Shown here: positions 6,685 to 37,639 of the stretch, in pieces | Layout: the number at the start of each line of letters is the position of its first letter | How positions within the stretch are numbered: position 1 is the stretch's first letter | The notes under the pieces: model-generated | Seen by the model: only the letters and a program-made list of their open reading frames with translations | What the model was told of the DNA's origin: nothing | The model's database searches: none | Position numbers and translations under genes: made by a program | Assembly: GCF_963675165.1 (NCBI RefSeq) | Contig: NW_026986606.1 | Location: 1-56,744, forward strand | DNA length: 56,744 nt | Direction of reading: 5' to 3' | From: Halichondria panicea | Lineage: Eukaryota; Porifera; Demospongiae; Suberitida; Halichondriidae

Positions 6685-6888
6685 AAATCGCAAACCCACG
6701 TGGAATAGAGAGGAGAGCCTGTTAAAAAGATCAATCCAGGTAAACTGTTTCTTCCCAATGGATGCTGACTTAGACATGGACGTACATCGAGGACACAGTG
6801 TTTCTCCCAGAAGACAAGACGCAAGCAATGGTAAGCTGTTGTGTACTAGATCCTCCACATACTCTAGTCTAAGTGTGTTGGTGGTCAC

Positions 6889-7816: not shown

Positions 7817-7901
7817 ATGCCAGGAGTGAGGGAATCCCTGCTCATGATGGCCATTATGGCTTCAAGTTTGTGTCCAGCAATCGCAAGCATTCCAGTCACC
7901 A
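7817..7901 (+). other. Collagen gene exon 1: signal peptide
   Basis: ATG at 7817 opens [17 protein letters not shown] followed by LCPAIAS, a hydrophobic leader with a small-residue cleavage region, ending at the donor A|GTAAGT (phase 1). The other open frame here, starting near 7702, has no leader and does not splice in phase to exon 2, so it was not used. Confidence 0.85.
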
Positions 7902-10900
7902 GTAAGTAAAAAGAAACGTATGAGGTATATATAAGTCCAATGTTCAGTCAATTTCTGTCTAAGTAACTCGACCATGCATGCACCCTTCCATTCACGACAA
8001 AACTTGATGTTCTATGCACGTATAAAGGTAATGTACGTGTACATGTATCAATTGGCCTGTTATAAGTGATACAAGCATGGCTTACTATGATAGATTATGT
8101 TTTTGTGATGAATCATAACTGACCACGGAGCATATGGCGGTGTAATAAAATATCGTTGGCTGTGAAGTGGGTGCTTGTTGATTGGCTTCTAAGCATTCTC
8201 ATCATAGAGGTTGAAAGAGATTACCTGTATGTGTTTGCTTGTGCTTCAAGAAGATAACATACTCTGCTGTTACTATAGTAACTGGTTGGGTGCGTACGGA
8301 ATTTTTATAATAATTATGAGTAAAATTAATGACGTCGATCCTTACAAACGTAAATCCTTGTTTCTCATCCACAATAATTTTGCTGAAGCCTATCACTCCC
8401 TCCCCTCCCCTCGTAGTTGACTTGCTTGCTGAAGCGGGGCTACGTGATGGCAGTCTGTCTGAAGACGGAGCCTCCCTCTCCCCCGGCCCCAGTGGAGTCA
8501 TGGACTCTTTCTCTCTAACCAGACCTCTCTCAGCCGCTACTGACAGCACTCGATGGCAGATACTGGGTGGAGACTCACAGAGCTCACTCTCTCTCTTCAC
8601 TGTGCTTGAGGCATCCGGCTACTCTGGGTCAGTGATCTCGATCGGTGATCAACTCGACGTCTCTTTGAGCACTGTTGTGAGGTAAGTAGCAATAATATTA
8701 GTATTGGAGAGTTTGATTGGTGGTATAAGTATATGTCCTAGCTGTATGTATGGTATTTGATAGCTGTGACAGATTTGGTTGAAATTCACCTCATTCAGAA
8801 CGATACCAGACTGTCATCTTAACATTAAATGTCCCATTATAAATAATATTACTCCATTATGACCATTCAGTTTGTTGATTAAATTCTACTTTAGTTGTCA
8901 CTTCCTCATAATTATTCCGAATGAGCGTTGATAATTATGCCAGACACACATACACAATTGCTTATCAATTGCAAAATTCATGTTTGCTTTGCGCCCACTC
9001 AGGTTTGGGCTGTCAGTGCAGAATCTTGTCATTCGTTTGCCAGGGATGGTGGAGCCAGTGGGTGTGGTCATCCCTGATTCACCCGGCTATCGCTCCATTG
9101 GTCTGCGACTGGACGGGCAGAGACTAACAGTGCTAGTAAACTGTGAGGTACTGGACAAGATCACTATTCCAGAGGAGCTCTCTAGTTTGGACGTCAATGG
9201 ACAAACAGTTACCATATTCAATCAGCCTGTCTCTGTATGTTGATTTAATTATCTAATTGGGTGAGATGATGTCATTGCTGTTAATGACTGCAGGTGAACC
9301 AGTTGCGTGTTTCCAACAGTCCCTATGTCGCTGTATCTGGATGTAGTGTGGTAGGTTGCAATCAGCTCCATTGTAACAAGCTAAAAACTTTACATCATGG
9401 GGATTAATGTTTTTTGGGATATTGTATTTATAAGTCTCAATTACTAATGTCTCAATTATAATAGTGAAACTTAAAAACAGCAATAAACTTTCTGTGTCAC
9501 CTCTTTACTCTTAGCTCCCACCTGGTCCATCTGGACCTCCCGGACCACCTGGATCAATTGGCAACAGAGGCAGCAAAGGAGTACCCGGACTTGATGTGAG
9601 TATTGTCATAAAGTTCACTGTGGATATTGTATACAGTGCCTGTAGAAATTGTGGTGATACAGACGGTATAATTATTATAATTATAGATCGGATAGTGTGT
9701 GTCTTCTAGTAGAGATGATACTGTGCCCATCTAATTATGTGAGATCTCTACTACGTAGCTGTAACTGATATGTTTTCTATACAGGGCTCTTCTGGTGAGA
9801 CTGGTCAACCTGGCCCTCCCGGAGATAACGTCACTGTAGTGGTGAGTACAGTGTAGGATATTCAATAGAGTGTCGTGTTCTGAGTCCTCAAGTGTTTGAG
9901 TTAGCAGTCCACTAACTTGATGTTTTGTCTGTTTGTAGGGACCTCCTGGATTGCCTGGCCTGCCTGGCGTCCCCGGACTGAACGGTACTCCTGGAGTTAT
10001 TGTAAGTTCGATTTGGTACTTCTTAATTGATTTGTGGAGTCTGCCTAGATGTTCCATTGGTAGCACTTAAAGTTGTAATAAGTGGCATGATTATATGATA
10101 TAATTATTGTACATGTATACTAATAGCACCAGGTCCTATATGTAGGCCTACTTTTTCAAATGAACTGCCCTAGCCATTATTTCTGATTGGCGTGGGGTGG
10201 AGCTAATTAATGTGAGTATTGCAGGGACCCTCCGGCAGGAAAGGACTTCCGGGAGATCCTGGAGACAAAGGAGACACTGTGAGTTTCTTACTAATACATA
10301 ATTATTATAATTTTGTCTGTTAGCTAATGTGTACGTACTTACAAGATGTTTGTTCGTGCCCACCACTTCATTTGTTTCTAAATCTCATCAACACAGGGTA
10401 ACCCCGGTATGAATGGAACAGTGGGAGAGCCTGGAAGAAAGGGACTTCCTGGAATAAACGTACGTGTACCTACTTGTAACAGTACATTATCATGCTTAAA
10501 GTGGGACATTTTTAGAGTAGGATCCGAATAAGTATTATTATGGTTAAAGTAATTATGTGTGTGCCGAGTACTTGATAACTTTTGAAAGTCCTCAACCTGT
10601 AAGTTACGTTACAGCACTCCTCCCCACTCCTTTACAGGGTGATACAGGCCCTCCTGGTGAGCCTGGTACAGCTGGTGCTCCTGGAGACCTGGGACTCCCT
10701 GGCACTAATGTGAGCACAGGGGATGTACTGGAATTGTGTTTTGTGTCTCTATGTGCACATTATATATTCGATCAGTATTTACAAGAGCTGCTAGAGAATG
10801 GTTATATATGTATGCTTATGATTGGGCAGAGAACAGCTGACTTCAATTGTTCGTTACTATTAGTTATCACGTCACAGGGCACTGATGGACCTCCTGGTGA

Positions 10901-13900
10901 GCCTGGATCAATAGGCCCCCCTGGAAGATCTGGGACTCCTGGGAAAATGGTAACTGGAGCTGCTATGAAATAACACAGCACGTCATTCATATTATTGTGA
11001 CTCTACAATTACGTACTTGTTCTTCATTATTTTAATGTTGTATCTATATTGACAACGCAGGGTGGGGATGGTATTCCTGGTTCCCCTGGTGATCCTGGAG
11101 AGCCCGGAGCAATCGGACCACAAGTATGGCACATCTTATCCCTTCAATTAATTTTGCCACCAAAGCATTTGTAATTAGAATAGACGTATATAGACGTATA
11201 TTGATGAACTTTTCATTAGCTGAGATGTACAAATGTATGCTAGAATTGACGATATGCACTTCTATTGTAGGGCCCAGAAGGCCCCTCAGGCAGGAAAGGC
11301 CTGCCTGGGCCACCTGGATCTCTAGGACCCATTGGACCACAGGTAGGTACTTACGTATAATTATATGCACATGTATGATAATCATACTTGTAGCTGACAG
11401 TCCATTACTTGCACTTCGCACTTTAGTTACCAAAACATGTCTCAATGTATGAACTAAATATATATATCTACATGACAGTACACACATTGCACTACTTCCT
11501 TTCTTAATTATATTGGATTGTCTTACTCAAACTCAAATCATACAATATTTTTAAAATCTAGGGAGAGCCTGGTTCCCCTGGTAACAACGGTACTGACGGT
11601 AATCCTGGACCACCAGGAGGAATTGGTGAGCCGGGACGCAAGGGACTGCCTGGAGATGAGGTACTTACTTATGAACCATTGTGCACGTAAGGTTATAGTT
11701 GTCAGTCAGTCTGTCTGTCTGTCTGTCTGTGTATTCTGAGTCGACTACTCACCTGGATGCGATAGCACTGCATGTGTTTATGCCATTGATAGCCTCAACA
11801 CAACAAGGTAGTAGTTTTAAATTTGGCAGATTTTGATGTTAAAGCTTCGTTATCGAATAAAAGTGCTAAAAATCTTGAACTTACACGGTTGGCAGCTAGC
11901 CTTTATTCGAGGCACCCTACGTATTTACAGCTGAAGTGATCCTGTACCAGGAATAATGGAAAAAGGTCGCTAAAATAGAAAGCTAGAATTGTGACTGGCT
12001 TGCTGTCTCTGTAGCAGACTGCTAGGTCCTACTCCAGGAGCCATACTTCTCTGAGACTCCAAGCTTCTTTGCTGTGATCCATGTACCACTAAAACTCAGC
12101 ATCTGGTTTAGTTTTATTGCTCCTGAGTTGCTGTGCATGCTAGACAGCTCAGTCATACATCACTACATGCACTGCATTATATCTGCATGGTTTCTTAATC
12201 ATGTCACCAGCCGGCCGAGGGTTTGCACTTTAGTGCTCTAGTTTCTACACTGTATTGCAAGCATTTCTTCTGTAATAATTATGTACAAAAAGTTTAAATT
12301 AAGTGGTACCCTTATAACGTTCACTTGTGAAAAGGGCCAACTGTCACATGCGTACATTTGTATAAGATTTGTAATAGTAAGGCACTGTCCCAAATGAACA
12401 GATTGTGCAAAATTAAAATTACTTCTGTACAATTGTCACAACCTTGTTTCCCTATGCGGTGCTCGGTACTGTAACAATGTAGGAAATCCACTTTATATCC
12501 CGGTAAAACTGGTATCCAAGCTTAGTTAGTTAAAAGGGTACAGCATTGCTTATGTACGAATTAAGTGTTATATCAAATACTCTTGGTTACATGTATTGAG
12601 CATGCCACAGAGGAAAATTAGCTACAACTGCAACAGCCGCCATGAAGTATCAGTCTACTCATTGTATTTTGCTTATGATGCAGGGCACAGCTGGTGGACC
12701 TGGTAGTCCTGGAGACACTGGTCCAATGGGACCGCCCGGGAGGAAGGGAATACCTGGAAGAGATGTACGTAGTAATTAATAGATAATTACCATAGTAATG
12801 GCCTCTCTTAAACACTGCATAATTATACATACAATTCTTCGAACAGGGTCTGCCTGGCTCACCTGGAGAGAATGGAGAAGCTGGAATGAAAGGATTTCCC
12901 GGAAACCCGGTAATGAATAGTTATACTAATGTGGCATGGTTCAGATGAAGAAAGCATGCTGGTACGCTCATATTCAAGCTTTACTCTGGGCAATTGCTTT
13001 GTATGGATTTGTACAGTTTCCATGCACTGTAGGGTGTTAATTTTATGATTAAGATTAATGTCTCATTATATACATGTATACGTACTTCTATAGGGTGTGG
13101 ATGGTCCCCCGGGTCCCCCAGGAACTAATGGTGATCCTGGCACTCCGGGACGGAAAGGAGGTCCAGTGAGTATTGTGATACAATTGACCATCTCTCTTTG
13201 ATGATATTTGCTTTCGGCTCTCAATATCTAATTTTTGTGGGACAAAAGTATTTGTGGTTTTCGTGGTTGAAGCTCTGACCCCAAATATTTTACCTTTTAC
13301 CCACGAATGAAGCGACCTTGCCTACCTTTTAAGCATGCAGCAACCACAAAAATATTATCCACAAAGTGACTTAATATTGCTCAACCACGAATGTTTTGGC
13401 CCCCCTGAAAATTACCCGGTATACATAGTACATGTACATGTAGCCGTAGCTAGTGCAGGAATTTTAAGATTAAGCTTTTTAGTACAGTACTACAGCCTTT
13501 GCAGACGCTGTGTTTTCATGCACACTGTATGAAACATCAGTTTTCTGACCCGATATATAATTATGTGCTCTGTGCAGGGTGATCCGGGGCCCGTTGGTCC
13601 ACTGGGATTGCCAGGTGGGGATGGACCACCAGGAAGAAACGGAACAGATGGAAGACAGGTACATGTAGATACAATTATAAGCATGGCGATGATCGTACGT
13701 AAATTGCATTTTAAGCCGTACGCAAGGCCAATAATAATAATAATTTATTTTGATCTGAACCAGTTATTGTTACACTTGCTGACTCGTTGTTGTAAGTTAC
13801 GTACCTTTTATGATTCTTCTTTGGTATACGTACATGTATATGTATATAGGGTGAGATAGGAGTTCCTGGTTCGATGGGACTACCCGGTGTCAATGGCACC

Positions 13901-16900
13901 CCTGGAGCTAATGTGAGTTACGTGTTGATATCTCATAATAATTATACTTGTTGCAGTTGCCCGGTAACTGTACTCAATATACATAGGTTTCTTAGTTGGA
14001 TCTATATGTACATTGACTTGTCAGTTCAAGCGTACATGTATACAATTAATGAGCACTGTTGTCACATGTCCACCCACTTAACAAACAATGCAGGGTCCGC
14101 CAGGTCAGCTAGGACGTCCCGGCCGTAAGGGAATTCCTGGTAACAATGGAGAACCTGGAATAAAGGTGTAGTACTTTAAACTTACTTTTGTAACTGATTA
14201 CTCGTTGTGTGTGCTACGTATGTAATTTGGAATAATTATGAATCAAAATGTAGGGATTACCTGGTTTACCTGGACCACAAGGTATAAAAGGCCCACCTGG
14301 TAGGAAGGGATTTCCTGGATTAGACGTGAGTATATAATACTGCATTTATAAATCTCAGTGTCATATATACTGTATATTCCATCACCAGGGACAAGACGGT
14401 CTTCCTGGTATACCTGGAGCTGACGGGTTTCCTGGATCCACTGGTCGACCTGGAAAGACGGTGTGTTGTTCGTGCACATTTATTTGTTAATATTACGCAC
14501 ATGTACGTTCATAGATATATACATTATGTATGCACAATAACTTCACCTAATCTATACTTCCGGTAAAATTATCTATAACACATGAGCCTTTATGTTGTAC
14601 GTCCTCTCATCATACCAATGTATAGGGACTTCCCGGGCCTGTTGGACCTTTGGGCCCACCTGGTGAGTCCGGTCGCAAAGGATCTCCAGGTGACAATGTA
14701 AGTGGCTCGATTGTTGTACTGCTTTATAGTCACTTATTCCATTGCATTACCATGCAGGGATTGCCTGGAACTCAAGGAGAGCCTGGAGTACCTGGAACAC
14801 CAGGGTCAAAAGGATTGCCAGGATTGACGGTGGGTTAATTGGTATTTAATGATTGTTTGTTCCGCTTATGTACACAGCTCTATGAATGTTTTTGTGTTAT
14901 TTAAGAAAGTAAGCAAAGAGAAAAGAGCCAAAGCGACGTTAGAAATACACAACAAGATGGCTAAGCTTCCATGGGTCCATGGGCGTGGTTCAGATACATT
15001 TTATCCAAGAAGAGCTTGCAACTCCAGTAAGGGACGTCGAATGGTCAACGCTTGGACCAAGGAAGCTCTTGAGCATCTGTAGGAGTCGATATGTTGCTCA
15101 ACTATCTCTTTGACGGCTGCAAAATCTGGCATTGTCTTGTTCTTTTTTGCAGTCTGCATCGTAGATTGAATTGTTGCTAGGGGGAGGTCCTTTTATAGTG
15201 CTGTGGTATAAGTCAGATATGCCACACCTACTCGGAGGATATGCACTCCATATCTTCCTCTTAGGTGTGGTATATCCTATACTTAGCATGCAATTATTCA
15301 TTTTGTATATCGGATAATTTTCCTGTACTGCACATGCAGGGTATCGCTGGTCCTCCTGGAACCAATGGTGACCCTGGAGTGCCTGGGATGTCTGGACGAC
15401 CGGGGAAGATGGTGAGCACATGGCAGACTGTAATACTCATTGAACACTATCAAAAGGCCTCTTGCTAATGAAAATATGTCACCTTAGGGCAGCCAACTGA
15501 AATTACAATATTATTTTAAGGCTCAAACTCCTGCTATTCACTGTCAGCATTTTCTGCATGCAGCAATTCATTCCTTATACATGTACTTTCAATGAGATAT
15601 TCACAGGATACGTGTTCTTGTGTTTTCCAATAGGGCATAGCTGGAGTGCCGGGTGAGAAGGGAGGAACTGGACGGAAAGGTCTTCCAGGACTGGCAGTGA
15701 GTTAACCATTTTTTTTGGATTGCCAACAGCTATAATTTCAGGGAATGTTGCCATTGTAGGGAGAGCCAGGTGGTCCAGGTGAAAGAGGGGAACAAGGAGT
15801 GTCAGGAGATCCGGGAGAAGCAGGACCTGAGGTACATACGTTTGTGTCATTCTACATGTATATTCGAATTCAAATGTTAAGGCGAATGTACAATGTACAT
15901 GCATATACATACAACTACTTGCTGTGCATGTTGCTGAATAATTATAATGATTACAGAAAAAAAACAAGTTATCATGTGTTAGCCGGAATGGTGCTTTTAA
16001 CTTATAGGGGCCCGCCGGACCACCTGGTGAACAAGGTTCTACTGGTAGGAAGGGACCCCCCGGATTAACGGTAGGTACCCTGATGATACAGACAGCTAGT
16101 GGACGCCATCTTTGTTCCTCTGTAGGGTCCTGTTGGACCAGCTGGTCCCAGTGGAGATCCAGGGTTGTCTGGGGAACCTGGACTGCCTGGAGCAAATGTA
16201 TGACCATGCAGTCAGTTCATGCAGTATAGACTGTTTATGATGCATCGTGTATCTGCTGTTTTTAGTGTGTGTGTATATGTATTTACTTGCCTGACGTGGA
16301 ATAGGTTGCGTGTACATGGCATTGTACTTATACAGTAATAAATATGTTTGGAATCGTGTCTCTCTACAGGGCACAGCTGGAGCTGATGGGTTGCCTGGAC
16401 CACCAGGTAATGATGGGATACCAGGAGCTCAAGGGAGGCCTGGAAAAAATGTGAGTCATCTTAAATCATTTTGTTAATTACTGATTAGTCGTTTTCATCC
16501 TACATGTACGTAGTTAATTTTATGACTATAATTGTTTTAGTTGTTTGAAAAAAGATTTGTGTTTGTTGTTGTACGTGCAGGGTTTGAATGGTCTGCCTGG
16601 ACTGAATGGAACGTCAGGAGAAGCTGGAGAGCCTGGAAGTCGGGGCGTTCCCGGGAAACTAGTAAGGAAGTGTACTATATGATAACGATTAATCGGATTA
16701 GCAGCTCTTTTTATATAAACTCTAACCTGCATCTGTAAAGCGTACTTCCTATATACCGTACATGCACACGTAGCAACAAGGGTTAATTGGGCTTAGCGCA
16801 ACCACAGCCACAGGGAGATTTAGGGTCCATTTGGGTATTTTTCATCGCGCATTTATTGGCGCATTTATTGGTGTAAATAACAATCACATCTGAGCAGAAG

Positions 16901-19900: not shown

Positions 19901-22900
19901 TTATTGTTGTTGAAAATGAACCAGCATGGCTAACTCGAGAAAGTTTTTGCGGGCAGCCGATGCTATAAAAGAGTCTGAAGACTGCAACAGCCTTCACTGT
20001 GAGTAAAACTCGAGAAAGAAGCTTTAGTTTGCAAATCAACAAATCAAGAGAACGTGGCTAGAAGTTCGTCGCATTGCAACCGTTGAGCAGTTGCATCTAG
20101 AACAGACATAGTCAGCGTATCCCTCATGCGGCTACGCCTTGAGGCATAATAATTATCGAGGTTTGTTAATAGCTGATAATGGTGATAGAATGCGTCTCAA
20201 AGTTAAACTAATAAATTAAAGTGACAGGCTCTGGGAAAACAGACCAATTGGCGCAAGCTATAATTTTTGCGATCTATATACCAGATGATAGAGCAAAGAA
20301 TTGCCTACACATTGATATGCTTAGTTTGCACATACCTCGTTCCATGCCTGAGTTATGCGCGTTGGAAACTCGGAAGTTGTAAAACAGCAGTATTGAGAAA
20401 CGCCCACTCAAAGATTGCTAAATTAGGAAAAGTAAGGTAATGGTGGCTGCTTAGACAAAGCGCTTTGGTGGAAAGAGTTGGATTCAGAGCATCAGATTTT
20501 ACAAAGAGGTAGTAGAAAGACTGTAGATAACTATAAGCCAAGAAAAAATATATATGAGATTATACACTGTAGTCTATAAACTGGCTATTGCTCAATACCA
20601 ATACCCACTCCAATTGGTCTGTTTTCTCAGAGCCTGTCACCTATAGGCTTCTGTTATTTATGTCATCCTGAAGGTCTCACAGTGACAATTGATTCTTCAC
20701 ATGTAGTAAAGTATGCATGTAGTTAACACGTACATGTTATTCATCCACCAATCACCACATCCACCCATTAATTTTGAAAGGTCTATAGAAGTAGAATTCT
20801 CACTTCAGTAAAATCTGAACTGAAAAAAAAACAAGAATGAAATATATCATTGTTGCTCTAACTCTTCTGGTCGCCATGGTTCTCTTAATTGAGGGCAAAC
20901 CTCAAACAATGAAATTGGAGGAAGGTGAATCTGCTTTTACACGAAGCAAGCGATCAGATAATGACAAAAAGAGTGCAGCTGAGAGCACCGAACCAGGAAA
21001 ATCTTCACCATCAGAGAGTACGGCTGACAACAGTGTTTTGGGGAGTAACTCGTCTTCGCTATCAGCAAACGAAGAAAATACAGCTGACAACACTACTTCA
21101 GAGAGTGACAAGTCTTCGCTATCAGCGAACGAAGATAGTAGAGCTGACAACACTGTTTCGGGGAGTAACTCGTCTTCGCTATCAGCAAACGAAGAAAATA
21201 CAGCTGACAACACTGCTTCAGAGAGTGACAAGTCTTCGCTATCAGCGAACGAAGATAGTAGAGCTGACAACACTGCTTCAGAGAGTGACTCGTCTTCGCT
21301 ATCAGTAAACGAAGAAAATACAGCTGACAACACTATTTCGGGGAGTAACTCATCTTTGCTATCAGCGAACGAAGAGAATACAGCTGACAGCACTATTTCA
21401 GAGAGTGACAAGTCTTCGCTATCAGCGAACGAAGATAGAGCTGACAACACTGCTTCAGAGAGTGAGAAGTCTTCGCTATCAGCGAGTGAAGAGAGTACAG
21501 CTGACAACACTGCTTCGGGGAGTTACTCGTCATCACTATCAGCGAGTGAAGAGAGTACAGCTGACAACACTGCTTCAGAGAGTGACAAATCTTCGCTATC
21601 AGTGAACGAAGAGAGTACAGCTGACAACACTGCTTCAGAGAGTGACAAATCTTCGCTATCAGCGAGTGAAGAGAGTACAGCTGACAACACTGCTTCGGGG
21701 AGTTACTCGTCATCACTATCAGCGAACGAAGAGAATACAGCTGACAACACTGCTCCGGAGAGTGACAAGCCTTCGCTATCAGCAAACGAAGAGAATACAG
21801 CTGACAACACTGCTTCAGAGAGTGACAAGTCTTCGCTATCAGCGAACGAAGAGAGTACAGCTGACAACACTGCTTCGGAGAGTGACAAGTCTTTGCTATC
21901 AGCAAACGAAGAGAATACAGCTGACAATACTGCTTCGGGGAGTGCCTCGTCATCACAAACAGCGAGCGAAGAGAGTACAGCTGACAGCACTGATTCAATG
22001 GATGAATCTTGACAATCTGAAGTTTTAAAGCTTCTCTTTAACTAAGACGGTAGTGAACAATGTATATATATATACATGCACTTTTATCACTATTTATAGT
22101 GAAGAAACAGTTATCTAAAATCAAATGTGCTTGCTTTAGCTATACATGTAGTGTTCTCATTTTGACTGAGTAGCTTGATGTTTTTAGCGAGTTGTACAGA
22201 GATAGCAAAATAGCTCCTTCATCATACAGCATGCATATACTGTATTATGAATGAGTCACTGAAGCAATAGGAGGGGAGAGGGTTGCTATGCACCTGTTAG
22301 ATCTCGCTTGTGCTGAAGTGATTTAGTATTTAGCCACATTCGAACAATATCATAGCTATATACAATCGTATGATGTCCCATTAATAATACATGGTCGTGG
22401 TTTTCGCGGATTAAGCATGTACCGCGAACATCTATAACCTATTAAGCCTAGTTTTGCTTACTTGGAATGCCATTGCAGCCTTTTCGGAAGAGCATGTAGC
22501 CAAACTTGTTTACCGAGTGTTGCTACTCTACTTAGTAGTTGGCTCTGCACTAGAACGCTAGCTATTGGTAGCTGCAAGAGAGCTGCAAGGCTCTGCTGAT
22601 GGCAGCCATTAATTTTAGACTTGAACTTTGGCATCAATCGTTTTTAACAACAATCATGGTCGATCATTACCCACTCTTTGAGTTTGCAGCATGCAAATTA
22701 AAAAATGTTCATCATTATTATGTGTATATATTAGTAGTTTTATGTTCATGTAGCTTTGACATCTCCACCGAGGCATCAGCACCTGCGGTGCTTTCATTAT
22801 AATTATCAGGATTACATAATTAATATATAAATTCTTAATTTTCTATACTACAACTTTAGCCCAGAGTACTAAGTAATGGCAGCATATAAATTAATAACAG

Positions 22901-25900
22901 ACTAAGTTTCCAAAAGTTGTGAGCAGCTATAATAATCGTTACGTTACACGTATCGATACACTTGCATTCAATGTATAATTATTGTCAAAATTGTTTCATC
23001 AGTGGTGAATACTCATCTGGGTATAGGAACCGATGTGGAAGCACGTTACCATCACGCTCCATTTCTTGAATGCTCGTTATTGCTTGTCGATTTTTTTTTA
23101 CATACTAGTGAAAAAACCGGATGACAAAAGTGATGACTCCCCACAATTTGTAGCAAAAGAAGTACACAAGTGGAGTACAAGCAAGAACGTATATTAAATA
23201 TCACCAATTCCAAAGGTTCAAATATGCTTTGATATGCAAATTCCAAGTCATTATAAATACTGCTGATAGCCAAAACAATGAATCGAGGGTGTTGTACCTG
23301 TTTACCTTATAAGGACGTAAGGTAGCAACAATAAACCCTGTAAAGCTTGATACAATGATGAAGTTAAGGTAATGGTTTCTGCTGCTCACTGAAAATATTA
23401 GTATGATTCTAACCATTAAGTAGTACCCGGTAAACCAGCGATGATCTCTTGTTCCAGGCTCAGTACCGTTCTTAAAACCCTTGTAAGTTGTTAGCAACCT
23501 CGTTAAAAAAATTGAAGCGACAGAAGGAAAGAATTTTCTGGAAAGTCTTAAGCTGATAGAGCATAATTAATAGAGCTGGCAAAGCAACTATTGCTATCAG
23601 TACAGTGATTGCTAGTATTTTCAATTTCAGATACTCCTTCGAATAAATTGTGTATTCCACCTTGTAATAAAGCCGTTCAATCATGTTTTCAGACTTTTCT
23701 CTGACCGTTACTGGTTGTAGCAAATACAATGACGTAGAGCAAAACTTGCTGTACGAGAGAAGCAGGAAAGTGACAAACACGTTTATAACAGAGCCTTTGA
23801 GTTTCCAGCTTGTACGAATTCTTGCAAAGCAGGTGTGAAATAGCCTCCAACAAACATATAGTACTCGACAACCTCGGTCATGTAAAGTTATAAGCTAGTA
23901 TAGAAATACAATGAAGAGTATTGAAGAAGTCCAGGCTAAATAGTCCATAGCAGTCTGCTATGAATTTTGTGGTGGAATAAGATTTCTCAAACCCATTTAC
24001 GACAAACAGATTGTAATTGAATTCACTCGTGACAAGTTGAGCAGCTAATACAAATCCATTAAGAGCAGGCGACACTAAATTTATCCGGAATACAATCATG
24101 ACAGTACAGATAGTTGTCATAGGAACAATCACCCTGATAGCAAACAGAATCCACCCCCAAGGATAAGCTATGCACTCCTTGCATTCTCTGTAATAGGAGA
24201 ACATAGCTGGTCCCAGTCCTGGTTGGCATTTACTGCAGAGTAAGCCAGTGTGATTCAGAGGTCCACACATGTCTTGAGTCAACTTAGTCGGATTGGTTGG
24301 TACCGTATGGTAGAGCTCACTGCTGTAGGTGTTGTATGGGCATGCTCCAAAGGACAATGTTCCGTTATCGAATGTCAGACAATATCCAAACAGCACGCTG
24401 GTTCTGTTGGAGTATTGCTCACAGTCTATCATATCTGATGCCGCTGCTGCACACTCGCATCCGTGGTCTGACCGCTCAAACCATGTAGGGCAATCCTCCT
24501 CTGTACTGGCTGGAACCAGCAGTAGTATACCGAGCACCGTCAATGCTTGTAACATGTTGTAGATCAGCACTAGACTAGAAATCTGTGAACAATGACTGTG
24601 AATTTTCAGAAGGAAAAATAATTATGCGACTAACTTACGTAGGTATATTCGCTGTTTATCTGTCAAATGCAATACTTTTATCCACCAGCTTTTGTAAACA
24701 GCCCAGTGTTTATCATGTTTATGACTTCAAAAATGTGCAACTGAGAACAATTGTTAAAGAATTCTGGCTGTCTAGTCAATGTTGTAGAGCTCGTAGTTAA
24801 TGTAACATCAATAGTTTTGTTCGAAAACAACACATGTTATGATGCTTTTACGTACATGTACCCGCAGGTATTCCTGGTAAGATGGGACCCTCTGGCACTC
24901 CTGGCAGTAGAGGTATCCCTGGTAAAGAGGCTATGCCTGGTGTGATTGGTCCACCTGGTGATGACGGTCGTAACGGAGCACCAGGTCAGAGAGGACTGCC
25001 AGGCAAAACGGTGAGTCATTATACCTACTCAATTACGTAGAACCACGTTGTTTATGCATGGTATTTATTATCATAATTTATGAGCACCTGGTCTCCATTA
25101 AATACCGGGGGGGAGGGGGCTTAAACATTGGTCTCACATAAATGCCACACCCTGAAACGTCATGTAGTTAGGAAATAAGTTAATCGAGGGAATATATAGT
25201 GTGCATGCATTCACTACGTGCAAAAATAAGATGATTTATAAGTGCCGATGTTTTGGGTTAATTGCTGGCATGATATCTATACTCGTGGTCACATAATGCG
25301 GTATTATTATGACATCTCCTGCAGGGTATACCTGGCATGCGAGGCATACCAGGCAAAAATGGCCCAGTGGGACCCATTGGCCCATATGGAGTCAACGGCA
25401 GCGCTGGCTCACCAGGTGCTCGAGGTATCCCCGGTAAAAGTGGTCCTTCAGGGATACCAGGGAGACTGGGTATCCCTGGGAAGTCTGGTCGGCCCGGGGG
25501 ACGAGGCATCCCCGGCAAGAGTGGACCAGCTGGACAGCCAGGAAGAAGGGGACATCCAGGAAAGGGTAAGATAGGCCTACATTCAGTTTTATGGCATACA
25601 TAAATGTTCCTTCATCAAAATTCTTGTAGTTTCGATCATTGTAGTAGTTATGTATGTATGCATGCTTTCAGCGCACAAGCCCAATCCTTAAGTATGAAAT
25701 TGTTATATGTAGTTGGCCCAAGTGGTCCAAATGGGGAACCCGGTGGAGATGGTGTAAAGGGAGTCCCGGGAGCTAGGGGAATCCCGGGAAAGCGGGGAAT
25801 AGCTGGTCGTACTGGACAACCAGGCAAACCAGGACCAGTGGGACCGTCTGGAACACCAGGCATTAATGGAGTGCCGGGCAGAAATGCTAGTGATGGAGAA

Positions 25901-28900
25901 CGGGGTGACAAGGTACAGAAATAGTATCATAACTACGATGATATATATACACAACAGTAGAGGAAACGAAATTGATAGAAATTATGATACAAGACTGCAA
26001 TACTATAGAATTACAGTATAATATACTGCTATATTGAGAGCATGATATAATTTAACTGTGTGCAGGGTATGGACGGCATGAAGGGAGACAGAGGAAATCA
26101 GGGTATTCCTGGAACTGTTATTGGTAAGCTCTGTTCAGTTTGTTGACTCAGGAGAAGTTCCTGAAATTAGCCAAAATTGCCTAGAATTATTATAAGCACT
26201 TCTTCTCCCAGTTGCGGGTGGTGAGCCTGGTTTAATGGGTGGCAAAGGGGAGAAGGGTGACCTCGGTCTGAGGGGAACCCCCGGAGAGAGGGGTATGAGG
26301 GGACCTGATGGAACGAGTGGAAGGAAGGGAGACACTGGGGACGAGGGTGAGTGAATGTCTGCATAATGTCTAGCTGGTTTTGTATAAGCTATATAATAAT
26401 GTGTAAATCACCATGCATGCTTTTGGTCACACGGTATATTGATCAGCTTCGTGTTTTACTTTGAGCTTTGCATACGTAGGTTTTCTATTGTAGTTAAACT
26501 ATTAGTTGGGCTGAAGTACAACCAACTGTGTGGGGTTGGGTACCACTCCAATCTGGGTTTTGTTCCACTAGTACTTAGCTTTAGGGTGTGGCTAAGCATA
26601 AATATGATTAATCCCAAGTGGGCGGTAACTTTATACATTGTAGCTCAGTTAGAATGCTACTGCAAGAGTCACTTTTGCATGCCACTAGCTCTAACTGACC
26701 TGGCATGTTCCTGGATCAAGCTGGCTTGTCTACTATTGTTGCATTTTGAGAGAATTACTAGTTACTGACTCGTTCATTAATGAGCCACGCCTTCAGCACT
26801 TGAACTTTGCAATCTGATTGGGCTGCAAAATTTCTGCAGTGGAACAAAACTCAGATTGGAGTGGTGCCCAACCCTACGCAGTTGGTTGGACTCCGCCAAA
26901 CTATTAAACTATGGGAGTCAGTTGGAATGCTCCTTTAGATAGGTTACAGGTTGAGCAAAAATAATGTGTATGTTTATAAATCAATAATTATGCTGAATTA
27001 TTGTGTTTGTGTAGGTCCCAAAGGATGCATAGGAGGTCCTGGTGTGAATGGTAACAAGGGAGACCGTGGAGAGAAAGGTGATGCCAACGGTCCACAGGGA
27101 GACACGGGAGACAAAGGAGATATGGGTGAGCTGACTTCCTGCTAGTATTGAACTCTGTGTGTGTTTGTGTTATACTACCCGAGGTGCTTAGTTTTCGCTG
27201 TTTTCGAGGGTTAGTAATCCTCCACGAAAATGTTCCACACACATAGCTAATAGCGGACGCAACATGCATTGACATACCGTATAGCGCGAAATTTATTCGC
27301 AACAAAATGTTTTTAGAGGTACATGTACTTCCACGTATCTTGATCATTTATGTTGTGCAATAGGCTAAATGTTTTACTGTAGTATTTTCACTGTGCAAAA
27401 ACAGGTGATGCTGGTAGAACTGGAAAGCCTGGCCTGAGGGGTGGGCGTGGGCCTCCCGGTGCTCTTGGACTCACAGGAAACCGTGGTTTCCAGGGCAGGA
27501 AGGGAGACGTCGGAAATGAGGGGCTCAAGGGTTGTCTCGGCGACAATGGAGTGAAGGGAGAGAAGGGCAGCACAGGCAGGAAGGGACCACCTGGTCTGGA
27601 TGGACGTGATGCCTCTCTAATGGTTGGTATCATATTAAAATCATTACTTAGTACGTAGTGTAATAGTCTACCAGCTACCAGGATACAAATTTTGCATTTA
27701 GTTGAAGGTCCCCTTTCAAACTATAATTAGTATTCACTTACGTATGCAACCAAAGTGCTAGCTGTTGATTCTGTAGACTAATTTAACGTACACTGTTTCA
27801 ACTCGTTGAGCATACGTACATACATTTATAATTATGATACGTATCCCTCGTTTGTCTAAAGGTTTCAATCTTCTCATCATTTTCAATGTTGAATGAGTCT
27901 CAGTTGACTGGAGTGTTGGGAGCAGTAGCCTTCGACTCAGAGACCAGTATAATGTACATCTATACAGATGGTGGATGGTTGTCACTCTTCACTGTAAGGC
28001 ACTAGCTCTAGTGTTAGTGAAATAATCTAGTACGTCATTCTCTGTTTTGAATGCCTTAATAGATTATCAGGCACTGCGTGTAAAGATAATATATTTTCTT
28101 CACTGTGAGATACTTATGTGTACACTTATAGGAGTGCGCCCATGTATGTGCCCTTTATGGATGTATAGTCAATCAATATTAGCACCTGTTCTCAACCACA
28201 TACAGCCCTCAAGATCAAGACGGGACGTTAACGATCAATTTCCAGGAGAGGTAACACTTGCGTATACGTAGGTGGATGTTGGCATAGCCACATGCAATGC
28301 CGTATTATTAAAGTTTATGTCGTACTTTTCGATGGTGCTTCATACAGTCATACGTAAATGTGATATCAGTGTTTCAGGGTAATGTATATTGTTTTGTAGC
28401 ACATGCAATCTCTTAACTCAATTATGCATTTCATTCTAACAGTGTGGTAATGGAGTGATAGAGGGAGAGGAGGAGTGTGACGGTAGCGACGTGGGAGAGA
28501 GCACCTGTCAGAGTGTCGTTAAATTACCGTAAGTTGCTATACCCTTTAAGTAGTATGTACGCATGATATCATTTACTGTGTTTATGTGTGATAGGTATGC
28601 AGGCAGGGTATCCTGTACACCGCAGTGCAAACTTGATGTGTCTGGATGTACACCGTTAGCCGTGAGTTCCTATTCATGCATGTACTTATCATCGTATATA
28701 TAGTAGTTGTATAGTCTCTGCTCTTATGTGAAATTAATGTGTGCGTGCCTATAATAATTATAGTCGTTCCGTTTATCCATGTACATACATAATTATACAT
28801 GCAGGCTTTGTTGTTTGCTGTTAAGACACACAAAATGCGAAAGGTTCACATTGATTCTACCAATTGGAACGAACACCATCGCAGTTATTTCAATGAGACG

Positions 28901-29920
28901 TTATCAGCGGACATAGCCTGCCAAGACTCGGCTGTCAGGGCTGGTGTGCCAGGTGTCTTTGTGGCACTGCTGTCTACAAGCAGAAGGTCGATAGGAAAGA
29001 TCATCAGTTTGCAACAAAGCGACAACATTCCAATCATTAACTCACAGGTACGTAAGCGACTGCTTAATTGTGGCTTAAATGCATCCTTTATCCTAGCTCT
29101 CTTAATGTATCAATCCTCTCATGATTGTCATCCAATGAATTACTGTATTACTATGCTTTGCGAGTGAAATACCTTTTTGGGAATGCGACACATTTTAAGG
29201 TAATCAGCAGAAATATTGACACATACATACTTTTTGCAGGGCTTGAAAGCATAATTATGTTTGGTACTTGCAAAACACAGTAAACACGTAATTGGATGCC
29301 CTTGACCTGTGCTTTGCTTAGAAGGCCATACCGTATTCTTGTAGTGAAATGAACAGCCTGTGCCATCTGTGCCCTTATTTGTCTCCCCATACACAGGGAG
29401 AGATACTGCATGAGTCGTGGAAAAACCTTCACTATAAGAATCAAATCAGTCTGCAGAAAACTCTTACACTGAGTGGTTATCCTCTTGCTGAAGAGTAAGT
29501 GAACATCTGAATTGTATTGTAAAAAGCTCATTGATAAATTAAGTGGACGTACATAGTTTTATAGGACAACACACGGATATAGTATATCCGACATTGGCCG
29601 ACTATCAAGCATACATGCATCGGGTGGTGCCTTTTGGCTATAATATACACTATAGTGTATGTAAGCTTACGTACATTGTAGTGTATACTGGTAAGCTTTT
29701 ATGTGATTGTTTTTTCTTTAGGTTCGGCATTTGGTTAAGCCCGTTAACACCTGAGGATAATCAAGCAGGTGATGATTGTGAGTCATGGACGAGTGATTCC
29801 CCAGACGTCTCTGGCTCTGGACGATTGAGAAGACAGGAACAGTCTGCTTTACAATACAGCATTCCATGTAACAATGATATGGCTGTTCTCTGTTTACAAT
29901 TAACACACCGCTTCTCTTAG
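7817..29920 (+). CDS. Multiplexin-like collagen (type XV/XVIII family): TSPN - collagen - Cys-rich - endostatin
   Basis: A 58-exon model with GT-AG junctions gives one uninterrupted frame of 5445 nt (1814 aa plus TAG). Order by residue: signal peptide 1 to ~24; thrombospondin-N/laminin-G-like domain to 213; Gly-X-Y region ~214-1525; trimerisation-like segment 1526-1569; hinge with RSRR 1570-1584; Cys-rich module 1585-1635; endostatin 1636-1814. A TSPN-like N-terminus, collagen and C-terminal endostatin together define multiplexins, secreted basement-membrane-zone collagens whose endostatin fragment can be released by proteolysis. Differences from vertebrate members are a much longer, far less interrupted helix and the Cys-rich insertion. 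A 5.3-kb intron holds two other genes. There is no C4-type NC1 domain (not collagen IV) and no fibrillar C-propeptide. Hand-made exon edges may be off by a few bases at individual sites. Confidence 0.92.
8417..9350 (+). other. Collagen gene exons 2-4: thrombospondin-N / laminin-G-like domain
   Basis: Exons 8417-8681, 9003-9234 and 9294-9350 join in phases 1, 2 and 0. The product (about residues 29-213) has the beta-sandwich pattern of TSPN domains: [12 protein letters not shown], an [14 protein letters not shown] strand, a [18 protein letters not shown] strand and a closing Cys in VAVSGCSV. The two cysteines (VNC, SGC) are placed where TSPN domains form their conserved disulphide. The fold call is from pattern only. 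This domain precedes the helix in multiplexins and other TSPN-bearing collagens. Confidence 0.75.
11661..12683. other. Long intron within the collagen gene, no gene seen
   Basis: About 1 kb between helix exons. It starts with a GTCT tandem near 11706-11730 and otherwise holds low-complexity AT-rich sequence. I find no coding exon or complete inverted-repeat element. Confidence 0.5.
13231..13427. mobile_element. Diverged TA-MITE (GGGTAATTTTCG family) in a collagen intron
   Basis: It contains the family blocks TTTTCGTGG, ACCCACGAATGAAGCGACCTTGCC and a right end GAAAATTACCCGGTATAC, matching the elements at 41011-41211 and 49858-50062. The left terminus is degraded. Confidence 0.65.
14830..15339. 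other. Intron with small inverted repeat, no supported gene
   Basis: A short hairpin pairs ATATGCCACACCTA near 15220 with TAGGTGTGGTATAT near 15265. A short open frame at 14849-15082 has no recognisable domain and I do not call it a gene. Confidence 0.45.
19795..20150. mobile_element. Distant MITE of the ATGCCTC family in the large intron
   Basis: It begins TAATGCCTCTCGCC and ends CGCCTTGAGGCATAA, an inverted ATGCCTC end pair. Interior blocks (AACTCGAGAAAG, CTAGAAGTTC, TTGAGCAGTTGCA) are diverged versions of those in copies A, B and E. Confidence 0.6.
20220..20642. mobile_element. Inverted-repeat element with GTGACAGGCTCTG ends
   Basis: A left end of about 30 bp (GTGACAGGCTCTGGGAAAAC…) is mirrored at 20611-20640 (…GTTTTCTCAGAGCCTGTCAC). 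It is non-coding and lies about 200 bp upstream of the nested repeat-protein gene. Confidence 0.75.
20837..22012 (+). CDS. Secreted Ser/acidic 20-residue-repeat protein (nested in collagen intron)
   Basis: A single exon of 391 aa from the ATG at 20837. Residues 1-21 are a clear signal peptide ([20 protein letters not shown]), followed by a short basic pro-like stretch with RSKRS. The rest is about 16 tandem copies of a 60-bp/20-residue unit, consensus [20 protein letters not shown]. Units alternate between GSNSSS- and ESDKSS-type in the first half, a 120-bp higher-order pattern. One unit near 21430 lacks 3 bp, keeping frame. The product is very rich in Ser, Glu, Asp, Asn and Thr, with no Cys in the repeats and many acidic-Ser contexts suited to secretory-pathway phosphorylation or O-glycosylation. 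No homology is recognised. A role in extracellular matrix or mineral is only a guess from composition. The antisense frames also stay open because the period is a multiple of three; those are shadows. Confidence 0.8.
   Translation: MKYIIVALTLLVAMVLLIEGKPQTMKLEEGESAFTRSKRSDNDKKSAAESTEPGKSSPSESTADNSVLGSNSSSLSANEENTADNTTSESDKSSLSANEDSRADNTVSGSNSSSLSANEENTADNTASESDKSSLSANEDSRADNTASESDSSSLSVNEENTADNTISGSNSSLLSANEENTADSTISESDKSSLSANEDRADNTASESEKSSLSASEESTADNTASGSYSSSLSASEESTADNTASESDKSSLSVNEESTADNTASESDKSSLSASEESTADNTASGSYSSSLSANEENTADNTAPESDKPSLSANEENTADNTASESDKSSLSANEESTADNTASESDKSLLSANEENTADNTASGSASSSQTASEESTADSTDSMDES
22013..22439. other. 3' flank of the repeat-protein gene
   Basis: AT-rich sequence with no coding exon. 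Near 22393-22430 there is a weak remnant of the TA-MITE family (GTGGTTTTCGCGGATTAAG). No canonical AATAAA was located with confidence. Confidence 0.4.
22440..22790 (-). mobile_element. MITE, ATGCCTCGGTG family (copy D), truncated
   Basis: Reverse orientation of copies A-C: core blocks from GCCTAGTTTTGCTTACTTGG to the terminus TCTCCACCGAGGCATCAGCA. The GCGCATGCGC end is missing. Confidence 0.7.
23104..24570 (-). pseudogene. Cys-rich multi-pass membrane protein, decayed (antisense in collagen intron)
   Basis: The start at 24570 gives [19 protein letters not shown], a signal peptide, then a Cys-rich ectodomain with a [20 protein letters not shown] signature, [12 protein letters not shown] and successive hydrophobic helices. 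The same product continues in other frames: [20 protein letters not shown] (23800-23740), then [16 protein letters not shown] (near 23440), then further helices to about 23104. This family, as I remember it from sponge genomes, is an orphan-receptor-like protein with about seven TM helices. Breaks: a frame change with apparent loss of some 30 residues near 23880, a frameshift near a poly-T at 23490-23510, and an in-frame TGA at 23201-23203 followed by one more plausible helix. Three independent lesions favour a pseudogene. Family function is unknown to me. Confidence 0.7.
24868..27622 (+). other. Collagen gene exons 45-51: triple-helix block 2
   Basis: Exons 24868-25010, 25325-25565, 25713-25912, 26066-26123, 26212-26346, 27015-27125 and 27405-27622. 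Unlike block 1, these are long (up to 241 nt), and most junctions are phase 1, splitting a codon (usually Gly). Imperfections: GKEAMPG (Gly to Ala), GRNASDG (Gly to Ala, also an N-glycosylation sequon), GTVIVAGGEPG and GDANGPQG. One RGD occurs in GERGDK. Two helix cysteines (GCIG, GCLG) could form interchain bonds. Confidence 0.9.
26491..26913. mobile_element. Inverted-repeat element in a collagen intron
   Basis: The left arm contains GGTACCACTCCAATCTGGGT; the right arm contains its inverse, CTCAGATTGGAGTGGTGCCC. Arms of about 75 bp, roughly 85% alike, end in TAGTTAAACTATT / AAACTATTAAACTA. It is non-coding and lies between exons 26212-26346 and 27015-27125. Confidence 0.75.
27862..27993 (+). 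other. Collagen gene exon 52: trimerisation-like segment
   Basis: A 44-residue exon directly after the last Gly-X-Y residues: a hydrophobic start ([15 protein letters not shown]), then [20 protein letters not shown] followed by GGWLSLFT. Multiplexin trimerisation domains have the same place and pattern (G-x-L-x-x-V ... short strand ... GW), so I infer the equivalent chain-association role. Similarity is by eye and short. Confidence 0.55.
28206..28250 (+). other. Collagen gene exon 53: hinge with RSRR proprotein-convertase-type site
   Basis: This 15-residue exon encodes [20 protein letters not shown] fits the R-x-[KR]-R furin consensus. It lies between the trimerisation-like segment and the Cys-rich/endostatin part, where cleavage would release a roughly 235-residue C-terminal fragment. 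Cleavage is inferred. Confidence 0.6.
28443..28661 (+). other. Collagen gene exons 54-55: CGNG...ECD Cys-rich module
   Basis: Exons 28443-28528 and 28595-28661 (phase 2 join) encode about 51 residues: [16 protein letters not shown], then C, then [14 protein letters not shown]. The order CGNG-x-EEECD ... C ... C-x3-C ... C is that of the DUF4215/Myxococcus-type Cys-rich repeat found in secreted proteins of protists, bacteria and some animals. I know of no vertebrate multiplexin with it. Six cysteines suggest three disulphides. Confidence 0.65.
28805..29920 (+). other. Collagen gene exons 56-58: endostatin domain and stop
   Basis: Exons 28805-29047, 29397-29494 and 29722-29920 (TAG 29918-29920) encode 179 residues; human endostatin has about 183. 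Landmarks: [20 protein letters not shown] (human [20 protein letters not shown]), [15 protein letters not shown] (human VPIVNLKDELLFPSW), CESWTSDSP (human CETWRTEAP) and AVLCLQ (human IVLCIE). Cysteines at domain positions 39, 133, 163 and 171: the last two gaps (30 and 8) equal human endostatin exactly, the first is 94 versus 102. Histidines near the N-terminus (positions 9 and 15) could serve as metal ligands, as in vertebrates, but this is uncertain. Confidence 0.9.
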
Positions 29921-30519: not shown

Positions 30520-30975
30520 ATGAAGTTTTTTCTTACAACTATTATTGTCTTGTCCGTATGCATTGTTGGTAGATTTAGTTGCAGTGGTGTGGAGTATTTT
30601 GTCTCACCAACCCCTTTACCCAACCCCAACTGTCCCGAGAAATCAATTTGTCATATTTTGAGTGACTATGTGAGAGGCTCTCAATTATTCTTCAACAGCC
30701 ACAACAATATTTCCTTGCTTTTTCTGAATGGAACCCACAATTTAGAATTGTCTTTCTTTTTGGAAGATTACAAGAAAAGCTTGTCCTTTTACATGGCAAG
30801 CACCGACTCCAAGTTTAGACCAACAATTGTTGTTCCTCGTAAAATCAAAATCATGTTTGTAGGATTCAGGCACCTGAAGTTGCAGGATATAATTATTTTC
30901 GGTAATGATTTACCTACTCTTTATTTTATGGAATTCCGTCTTGACCAATCAGATTGCAGAAGTCCAGTCAGGTGA
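30520..30975 (+). pseudogene. Truncated N-terminal fragment of a signal-peptide/ectodomain membrane-protein family
   Basis: ATG at 30520 gives MKFFLTTIIVLSVCIVGRFS (signal peptide), then VEYFVSPTPLPNPNCPEKSI, C-H-I-L-S-D-Y and an NISLLFLNGTHNLE strand. I associate this start with large sponge membrane proteins that have an extracellular beta-helix-like region followed by the CGPLNxTG...C multi-TM part, the family of the broken gene at 23104-24570. Here the frame closes after about 151 residues with no TM region, and downstream DNA is repeats, so this is probably a remnant. Confidence 0.55.
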
Positions 30976-37636: not shown

Positions 37637-37639
37637 GCT

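Follow-up and report, generated by a model that had tools for sequence, protein, structure and literature searches.

Gene structure and triple helix

The window (the whole stretch of DNA analyzed, one complete unplaced contig of 56,744 bp) encodes an endostatin-bearing collagen on the plus strand (7817–29920). The predicted gene model, rebuilt from the sequence, comprises 58 exons that join into one frame of 5445 nt (1814 aa) with a single stop codon at the very end, exactly reproducing the frame of the original prediction. The acceptors are AG in 57 of 57 cases and the donors GT in 57 of 57 (e.g., exon 50 ends at 27125 and is followed by GTGAGC). Exon 1 (7817–7901) contains the start codon and encodes a hydrophobic N-terminus that, judged by eye, resembles a signal peptide. 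The parts of the protein follow in the order N-terminal globule, helix, short segment, hinge and endostatin, an order shared with collagens XV and XVIII. Searches of the window against Rfam and for tRNAs yield nothing at the gathering score and no tRNA, respectively.

The first part of the helix is encoded by exons 5–44 (9515–19588, plus strand); every one of these 40 exons begins in phase 0, and lengths of 72 nt (17 exons) and 63 nt (10 exons) recur among them. Its second part is encoded by exons 45–51 (24868–27622, plus strand), which contain GTPGER and RGD motifs; a GGPGER motif is also present in the helix. The 430 Gly-X-Y triplets form six blocks (13, 306, 54, 8, 22 and 27 triplets) separated by five imperfections of 1–4 residues. 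The helix of typical multiplexins, the human chains included, is far more interrupted. Of the multiplexin assignment that had been proposed for this protein, the C-terminal endostatin stands, but the word itself is doubtful because the helix contains only five tiny imperfections and a run of 306 uninterrupted triplets.

The two groups of helix exons are separated by intron 44 (19589–24867), which at 5.3 kb is the longest of the gene and contains nested genes. One open reading frame (20837–22012, plus strand) encodes a secreted-looking, acidic, serine-rich protein of 391 aa with 20-residue repeats; the other (23878–24555, minus strand) encodes a cysteine-rich, membrane-protein-like sequence of 225 aa (222 aa in the second copy of the locus described below) and probably represents a single exon of a larger gene. 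Both are neighbours that do not belong to the collagen.

This second copy lies on the 7.59-Mb contig C6 (6.27–6.30 Mb) and is intact, with 1,814 codons. All exons are present, their lengths are identical in 58 of 58 cases and every splice dinucleotide is kept, so that the gene model is not a product of chance. In the coding sequence, 50 of 5445 bases differ between the two copies (first codon position 13, second 9, third 28), and in the introns 429 of 15,700 aligned bases do. The codon differences are 27 synonymous and 22 replacement; 20 of the 22 replacements fall in the helix, where every obligatory glycine is left intact. The window itself joins a left part that matches C6 (473–30,928) to a right part that matches contig C7 in inverted orientation (36,437–55,845). 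Neither this composite character of the unplaced contig nor the nested genes, the furin-like site and the cysteine module described below were mentioned in the original prediction.

Two readings would deny that the locus is a single working gene. In one of them, an N-terminal collagen ends at about 19.6 kb and a separate endostatin-bearing collagen starts at about 24.87 kb, with the nested genes in between, in keeping with the exceptional length of intron 44 and with the open reading frame found on each strand inside it. However, the intron splits an 11-residue motif of a kind that the protein contains 14 times, and the joining of exons 44 and 45 restores the phase, the Gly-X-Y register and this repeated motif together; moreover, the C6 copy keeps both splice sites of the intron. 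A break at this position, which had been named beforehand as speaking against a single gene, thus finds no support, and we reject the split as highly improbable. In the other reading, the locus would not be a working host gene but a contaminant, a decayed duplicate or a product of misassembly, and the junction of C6-like and inverted C7-like sequence in an unplaced contig could be taken in its favor. Yet the collagen gene lies wholly within the C6-like part, its C6 copy is preserved intact, the helix is under constraint between the copies, and the nested 391-aa frame is unbroken and of the same length in both; an artefact is accordingly rejected, its probability being close to negligible. A single gene is the reading that we retain.

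The endostatin domain and the weaker similarities

Exons 56–58 (28805–29920, plus strand, including the stop codon) encode an endostatin domain (aa 1636–1814), as had been claimed. The C-terminus matches the Pfam family PF06482 with 41.9 bits (curated cut-off 29.4; E = 1.1e-10), and a PDB search identifies endostatins of collagen XVIII (1dy0, 1koe and 1bnl; E from 1.1e-7 to 8.1e-6) and of collagen XV (1dy2; E = 1.5e-4). The Smith-Waterman (SW) score of 116 is reached by none of 500 shuffles, the best of which scores 48. Four cysteines (1674, 1768, 1798 and 1806, with gaps of 94, 30 and 8) are in register with the four cysteines of solved endostatins (1bnl, 1dy0), so that the gaps of 30 and 8 predicted to match human endostatin are recovered in alignment with known structures; the CE(S/T)W, PI(I/V)N and VLC landmarks likewise align with human and mouse XVIII. 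In the sponge domain, the first two cysteines lie eight residues closer together than in XVIII. The zinc ligands of human XVIII endostatin are His1, His3, His11 and Asp76. Asp76 aligns with glycine in the sponge domain and the N-terminal histidines align poorly, so that a zinc site of the XVIII type is not apparent. The endostatin of XV also has glycine at this position, so that the zinc site does not define the family.

When the genome is searched with the endostatin sequence at E-values of up to 1, the 14 matches all belong to the two copies of this gene. The genome-wide search with the Pfam Endostatin model, which works exon by exon, gives no match and misses even the gene in the window; it is therefore uninformative and may miss distant paralogues. 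Pattern searches for endostatin relatives gave 18 matches in GTDB genomes and 2 in viral contigs, none of which was confirmed. Two other classes of collagen were considered and rejected from a Pfam search of the C-terminal 296 aa, where Endostatin alone is found: a fibrillar collagen, as there is no COLFI propeptide, and collagen IV or spongin, as there is no C4 (NC1) domain.

The N-terminal globular region (exons 2–4, 8417–9350, plus strand; aa 29–213) had been described as TSPN-like. Pfam and PDB searches with this region give no relevant match to TSPN or LamG, so the assignment is without significance there, but comparisons with shuffled sequences are suggestive: a profile of three TSPN sequences scores 5.2 bits, which a single one of the 1,755 scored shuffles (3,000 made) equals or exceeds, and the SW score against TSP1 is reached by 42 of 2,000. 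Against the TSPN domain of XVIII the region scores like shuffled sequence (915 of 2,000 as high), and against NEL 434 of 2,000 score as high. A Pfam hit of the N-terminus to the NOL10 beta-propeller (E = 0.018 and 0.0042, under the 27-bit cut-off) and seven PDB matches to unrelated proteins (E of at least 0.14) are taken as chance. The six matches of this region in the genome are confined to the two copies of the gene.

A similar situation holds for the trimerisation-like segment that follows the helix (exon 52, 27862–27993, plus strand; 44 aa, aa 1526–1569, phase 0-0). Pfam and PDB sequence searches with the segment do not detect the trimerisation domain (PF20010), and a two-sequence trimerisation profile is matched by 106 of 2,158 scored shuffles; this part of the original description thus lacks significance, whereas the pairwise SW comparison is suggestive, with 19 of 2,000 shuffles scoring as high against human XV and 85 of 2,000 against XVIII. 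In a Foldseek search with the structural model of the segment (pLDDT 68.4), five XV/XVIII trimerisation chains appear among the best 50 matches, at E of 3–4 and at ranks 25, 26, 28, 35 and 42, with unrelated proteins ranking higher, and among the matches that VIA-align lists at Z of at least 2 there is no trimerisation chain.

A six-cysteine module in the hinge

Exon 53 (28206–28250, plus strand; 15 aa) encodes hinge sequence and contains a furin-like RSRR site (aa 1572–1575) adjoining a six-cysteine module. The module (exons 54–55, 28443–28661, plus strand) consists of 51 aa (aa 1585–1635) encoded between phase-0 introns, precedes the endostatin and has the pattern CGNGxxExxExCDG...C...GxLxC...C..D.S.C. 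It resembles a repeat of secreted proteins of Myxococcota and Deltaproteobacteria (TIGR02232-like), with which it shares the six-cysteine unit, at 38–57% identity to eight bacterial units. Relatives were sought among bacteria and in the host genome. The E-values of the first bacterial search are relative to the candidate stretches only, and a profile of 32 bacterial repeats was therefore tested against shuffles; these 32 units did not themselves match the query, although the eight open reading frames that contain them also supplied the units that did. The profile omits two of the ten bacterial loci (L040 and L041), in which the six-cysteine unit is incomplete. It finds the module with 45.2 bits, whereas none of 2,000 shuffles exceeds 11.6 bits; the E-value of 1.6e-12 refers to a small set, namely the protein, the 2,000 shuffles and the open reading frames of the window. 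With curated models, the module stays below the cut-offs: TIGR02232 (NCBIfam) gives E = 0.019, with 14.8 bits for a 64-aa piece and 10.2 bits for the 296-aa piece (cut-off 20.8), and DUF4215 (Pfam) gives E = 0.079 and 13.7 bits (cut-off 27). The ten bacterial frames contain neither Gly-X-Y runs nor an endostatin CExW motif and mostly carry the unit as repeats, whereas the sponge protein has a single copy between collagen and endostatin. An exon-by-exon search of the sponge genome with the one module sequence gives four matches, none of them outside the two copies of the gene, and thus no other module copy.

Sponge host and relationship to collagens XV and XVIII

The hallmarks of silicateins are a cathepsin-L-like sequence, serine in place of the catalytic cysteine and a serine cluster before the histidine. 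Silicatein exons with GDCGASYAFS and SSSLNHAM are present in the same genome; these hallmarks are seen in GDCGASYAFSAMGALEGAYALAHGG and SSRCTSSSLNHAM at 658.9–660.5 kb of contig C2. A second gene, at 200.1–202.4 kb of C6, has serine at the place of the catalytic cysteine and also the serine cluster and histidine, and a gene at 667.7–669.0 kb of C2 has the serine but, with CSSYSLDTA, no full serine cluster and no histidine. Because of these silicatein genes, the host is a siliceous sponge, in agreement with the sponge origin that had been proposed, and, to judge by its genes, most likely a demosponge. A COX1 search of the genome returned one short match on contig C1 with two TGA codons, which is probably mitochondrial DNA copied into the nucleus.

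As in human and mouse XVIII (COL18A1; 1bnl, 1koe and 1dy0), endostatin is located at the extreme C-terminus of the sponge protein, but the hinge carries the six-cysteine module and RSRR, Asp76 is replaced by glycine, and the helix of XVIII is far more interrupted. The glycine is shared with human XV (COL15A1; endostatin 1dy2, trimerisation domain 3n3f), to whose trimerisation segment exon 52 is also closer in SW comparison, a likeness that is suggestive only; the hinge of XV is not known to carry a cysteine module. The criteria for collagens XV and XVIII include glycosaminoglycan chains and location in the basement-membrane zone. The endostatin-bearing collagen shares its GRKGxPG-rich helix style with the spongin and collagen IV-like NC1 collagens of sponges, as seen in a collagen on contig C9 of the same genome, but those end in C4 domains, of which the genome has two matches, both on C9. 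The XVIII-like collagen of Nematostella is described with an N-terminal Laminin-G/TSPN region followed by a collagenous domain that is discontinuous and bears a mucin-like insertion (PMC12549020), in contrast to the nearly continuous sponge helix.

The best explanation of these observations, which we consider likely, is a single gene of a siliceous sponge whose product is a secreted collagen of the XV/XVIII type with endostatin at its end, and we file the protein among the endostatin collagens of this type as a new form of them. The competing possibility, that another sponge collagen acquired endostatin by exon shuffling and resembles XV/XVIII in its N-terminal and post-helix segments by position only, draws on the insignificant Pfam and PDB results for both segments, on the trimerisation profile score that does not clearly exceed shuffles, on the 306-triplet run and on the cysteine module, which suggests that the C-terminus has accepted exon insertions. 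We regard it as unlikely given the XV/XVIII order of parts, the SW match of exon 52 to human XV together with the five trimerisation chains in the Foldseek top 50, albeit at E of 3–4, and the TSPN profile score that shuffles hardly ever reach. The origin of the module is a separate question, on which we lean slightly toward an old animal or eukaryotic module, or a convergent one, over any bacterial source. The curated models are weak, the comparison covered bacteria and the sponge genome, and DUF4215 proteins occur in ciliates; on the other hand, the score of the bacterial profile speaks against convergence, and the single copy in the sponge genome, within the limits of the exon-by-exon search, against an old widespread module. 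Only tentatively, then, can we suggest that the hinge contains a bacterial disulfide module that entered the gene as a pair of exons in phase 0, its source being Myxococcota-type secreted proteins of symbionts or prey, and that it forms a stable, furin-released clasp carrying the endostatin; if so, a core animal matrix protein would have taken a bacterial part into its signalling end.

For the collagen of the XV/XVIII type, the architecture suggests that three chains would pair via the exon 52 segment to form a long rod with hardly any interruption, which the N-terminal globule and the GTPGER, GGPGER and RGD motifs of the helix would attach to matrix and cells, conceivably in the mesohyl or in layers beneath the pinacoderm. 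At the C-terminus, the globe of cysteine module and endostatin would be displayed as a trimer and may be freed by cleavage at RSRR, which would stand in for the protease-sensitive hinge of vertebrate XV/XVIII. Given the replacement of Asp76, any signalling by the sponge endostatin would proceed without a zinc site of the XVIII type.

Collagens XV and XVIII reside at basement membranes, and in vertebrates their endostatin acts as a regulator of vessel growth and cell migration. The claim that the sponge gene places this architecture at the base of animals overreaches: with one sponge species, the dating goes no deeper than the common ancestor of sponges and eumetazoans. XV/XVIII has already been reported from Nematostella, ctenophores are reported with collagen IV and laminin only, and a 2017 survey recorded demosponges without detectable collagen IV, with laminin-related domains and spongin only (PMC5395295). 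A long NC1 collagen is encoded elsewhere in the genome studied here; a genome search for the nidogen/perlecan G2F domain gave no match and is uninformative. The cysteine module is an unexpected addition to an endostatin collagen. That a silicatein-bearing sponge has both an intact endostatin collagen and a long NC1 collagen suggests that neither part depended on vessels, nerves or a classical basement membrane, and the sponge gene provides a testable system for the first role of endostatin.

Gene structure, genomic copies and neighborhood

The collagen gene model, built from Gly-X-Y runs in all frames, reading of the DNA and enumeration of exon candidates, spans positions 7817–29920 of the plus strand and reproduces exactly the 58 exons and the single 5445-nt frame of the original prediction. 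It encodes 1814 amino acids, the sole stop codon being terminal; all 57 acceptors are AG and all 57 donors are GT (e.g., exon 50 ends at 27125 and is followed by GTGAGC). A search of the host genome assembly (131.46 Mb, 39 contigs) reveals a second copy of this gene on the contig C6. Over 473–30,928 the window is collinear with the fetched C6 stretch that begins at 6,264,401; the alignment comprises five blocks, which are 87.8–98.9% identical. Projected onto C6, each of the 58 exons has identical length, for a total of 5445 nt with one terminal stop, and all donors and acceptors are retained. The coding sequences differ at 50 of the 5445 positions (13 first, 9 second and 28 third codon positions), and the introns at 429 of 15,700 aligned bases, with 959 more gapped. 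Among the differing codons, 27 are synonymous and 22 are replacements; 20 of the 22 replacements fall in the helix, none of them at an obligatory glycine (P = 0.0003 if the three positions are hit alike). The gene's differences follow the pattern of a triple helix kept by purifying selection.

The window is the complete contig C27 (56,744 bp), which is unplaced, and the collagen gene is located entirely inside its C6-like part. Positions 36,437–55,845 match the contig C7 (866–889 kb, inverted), with 99.7% identity over 44,810–55,845, and repeated DNA lies between the two parts, with the join within 30,928–36,437. These matches indicate that C27 consists of a C6-like and a C7-like part joined by a misjoin or a rearrangement. 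A high-copy 1.2-kb repeat at 32330–33560 also has an 88% self-match in the opposite orientation and has many genome copies with approximately 85–99% identity. On the minus strand, 36860–52881 holds a repeated ORF family related to DNA on C7 and on another contig, C1, three members of which display weak similarity to DXD glycosyltransferases (PF04488, below the cut-off), and 54499–55623 holds a mitochondrial ribosomal protein S30/PDCD9-like ORF (E = 2.7e-29). Directly upstream of the collagen gene, at 6163–6888 on the minus strand, is a cytidine/deoxycytidylate deaminase-type ORF (E = 4.2e-26; MafB19-like deaminase, 5.8e-28).

The 5.3-kb intron 44 (19,589–24,867), which contains nested ORFs, had been named as the place where the locus might break into two genes. 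Such a break appears very unlikely because the splice between exons 44 and 45 restores the phase, the triplet register and an 11-residue motif, one of 14 such motifs in the helix and the sole one split by an intron. A nested 391-aa ORF (20837–22012, plus strand) has a signal-peptide-like start, as judged by eye, and an RSKR site, followed by an acidic, Ser-rich repeat of 20 residues (60-bp unit) that occurs some 16 times. The C6 copy preserves this ORF intact and at the same length; its product may be a secreted protein of the matrix or one associated with mineral. The second nested ORF, Cys-rich and membrane-protein-like (23878–24555, minus strand), is accompanied by further open segments that continue to near 23.0 kb and matches Pfam DUF7630 weakly, below the cut-off (E = 0.02).

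Domains of the predicted protein

A Pfam search with the C-terminus finds the Endostatin family there (exons 56–58) above the cut-off, as originally anticipated (41.9 bits versus 29.4; E = 1.1e-10). The best PDB matches are collagen XVIII endostatins (1dy0, 1.1e-7; 1koe, 1.2e-7; 1bnl, 8.1e-6), with an XV endostatin also found (1dy2, 1.5e-4). The Smith-Waterman score against a human sequence is 116, compared to 48 for the best of 500 shuffles (0/500 as high). All four endostatin cysteines align with those of the solved structures, and both direct counting and the PDB alignment give the predicted last two gaps of 30 and 8 residues. By sequence similarity, then, the C-terminus is identified as endostatin. 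The position aligned to the zinc ligand Asp76 of collagen XVIII is occupied by glycine in the sponge protein, a difference from XVIII and a likeness to collagen XV, which has glycine there in the same PDB output.

The long helix that had been proposed comprises 430 Gly-X-Y triplets in six blocks (13, 306, 54, 8, 22 and 27), interrupted by VTVV, AMP, ASD, IVAG and a single N. Every exon from 5 to 44 begins in phase 0; among these 40, lengths of 72 nt and 63 nt occur 17 and 10 times, respectively. Since the helices of human multiplexins are much less continuous, the multiplexin label appears to fit the ends of the protein rather than its rod. The helix contains GTPGER, GGPGER and RGD, through which it might bind integrins.

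The regions that flank the helix resemble their proposed counterparts less than originally claimed. Pfam and PDB searches with the N-terminal region detect nothing relevant, and in single-sequence comparisons shuffles score as high in 42/2,000 (TSP1), 915/2,000 (XVIII) and 434/2,000 (NEL) cases; a three-sequence TSPN profile gives only 5.2 bits, although 1 of 1,755 scored shuffles (3,000 made) scores as high, with the match falling on a 10-residue cysteine stretch. Exon 52 (44 aa), the candidate trimerisation segment, has no Pfam match and no relevant match in a PDB sequence search; comparison with XV is equalled by 19/2,000 shuffles (XVIII, 85/2,000) and a two-sequence trimerisation profile by 106 of 2,158 scored (3,000 made). 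A Foldseek search started with an AlphaFold model of exon 52 alone (pLDDT 68.4) places five XV/XVIII trimerisation chains in the top 50 (ranks 25, 26, 28, 35 and 42), with E of 3–4 and below unrelated proteins.

Exon 53 encodes SRSRRDV, which includes a furin-like RSRR at the place where vertebrate XV/XVIII have a protease-sensitive hinge. It directly precedes a 51-aa module (residues 1585–1635, exons 54–55) flanked by phase-0 introns, the first of its six cysteines being the exact start of exon 54. Two curated models of Myxococcota-type cysteine repeats match it below their cut-offs (NCBIfam TIGR02232, 14.8 bits versus 20.8; Pfam DUF4215, 13.7 versus 27). A GTDB genome scan with the module gives 81 pattern matches, of which 10 loci are confirmed; the titles of six read Myxococcota/Myxococcales, of three Deltaproteobacteria and of one bacterium. 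Eight of the ten contain the full six-cysteine unit. A profile of 32 units from these eight ORFs, excluding query-matched units to lessen circularity, detects the collagen with 45.2 bits (E = 1.6e-12), against at most 11.6 bits among 2,000 shuffled versions of that stretch. Unlike the sponge collagen, all ten bacterial ORFs lack Gly-X-Y runs and the CExW motif. In the sponge genome, a search with the module yields 4 matches, all within the two copies of the collagen gene. Exons 54–55 thus appear to encode a bacterial-type cysteine module, a label by resemblance that implies no direction or age of sharing.

Host genome, predicted function and evolutionary scope

A probe for silicatein, a protein known from siliceous sponges, has 79 matches in the genome. 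Some are cathepsin-like genes, and several are genes with introns, including ones on the contigs C2 and C6. The exons at C2:658.9–660.5 kb read GDCGASYAFSAMGALEGAYALAHGG and SSRCTSSSLNHAM, with serine for the catalytic cysteine and a serine cluster. The intron-bearing gene at C6:200.1–202.4 kb has the same substitution and keeps a serine cluster and the histidine; the one at C2:667.7–669.0 kb has the substitution and neither a full serine cluster nor the histidine. These silicatein genes mark the host as a siliceous sponge, most likely a demosponge, in agreement with the host originally considered probable. On a nuclear contig (C1:5280527–5280718), a short segment resembling COX1 contains two in-frame TGA codons and probably represents a nuclear insertion of mitochondrial DNA. 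The genome also encodes a long collagen (C9:6766511–6775129, minus strand) with about 360 Gly-X-Y triplets counted and two C4 matches in terminal NC1-type segments, in contrast to the demosponges that one study reports to have spongin but no detectable collagen IV (PMC5395295).

On the most likely model of its function, the protein would form trimers via exon 52, be placed in the matrix and display a trimeric C-terminal globe. This globe would be released at RSRR, and the cysteine module could supply a rigid, disulfide-bonded base for the released fragment.

An XVIII-like collagen is present in Nematostella according to a study that also predicted matrisomes for two sponges (PMC12549020). Among the matches listed in the openly licensed PMC literature, as judged from titles, abstract openings and selected passages (including those of PMC5560861, PMC4224354 and PMC4678570), none describes a sponge endostatin collagen; such a collagen may well have been reported before, or annotated automatically, in other sponges. 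Placement of the architecture at the base of animals, as originally proposed, hinges on the branching position of ctenophores and on their possible loss of the gene, which one species cannot decide. If the sponge gene is orthologous, the architecture dates back to the ancestor that sponges and eumetazoans share.
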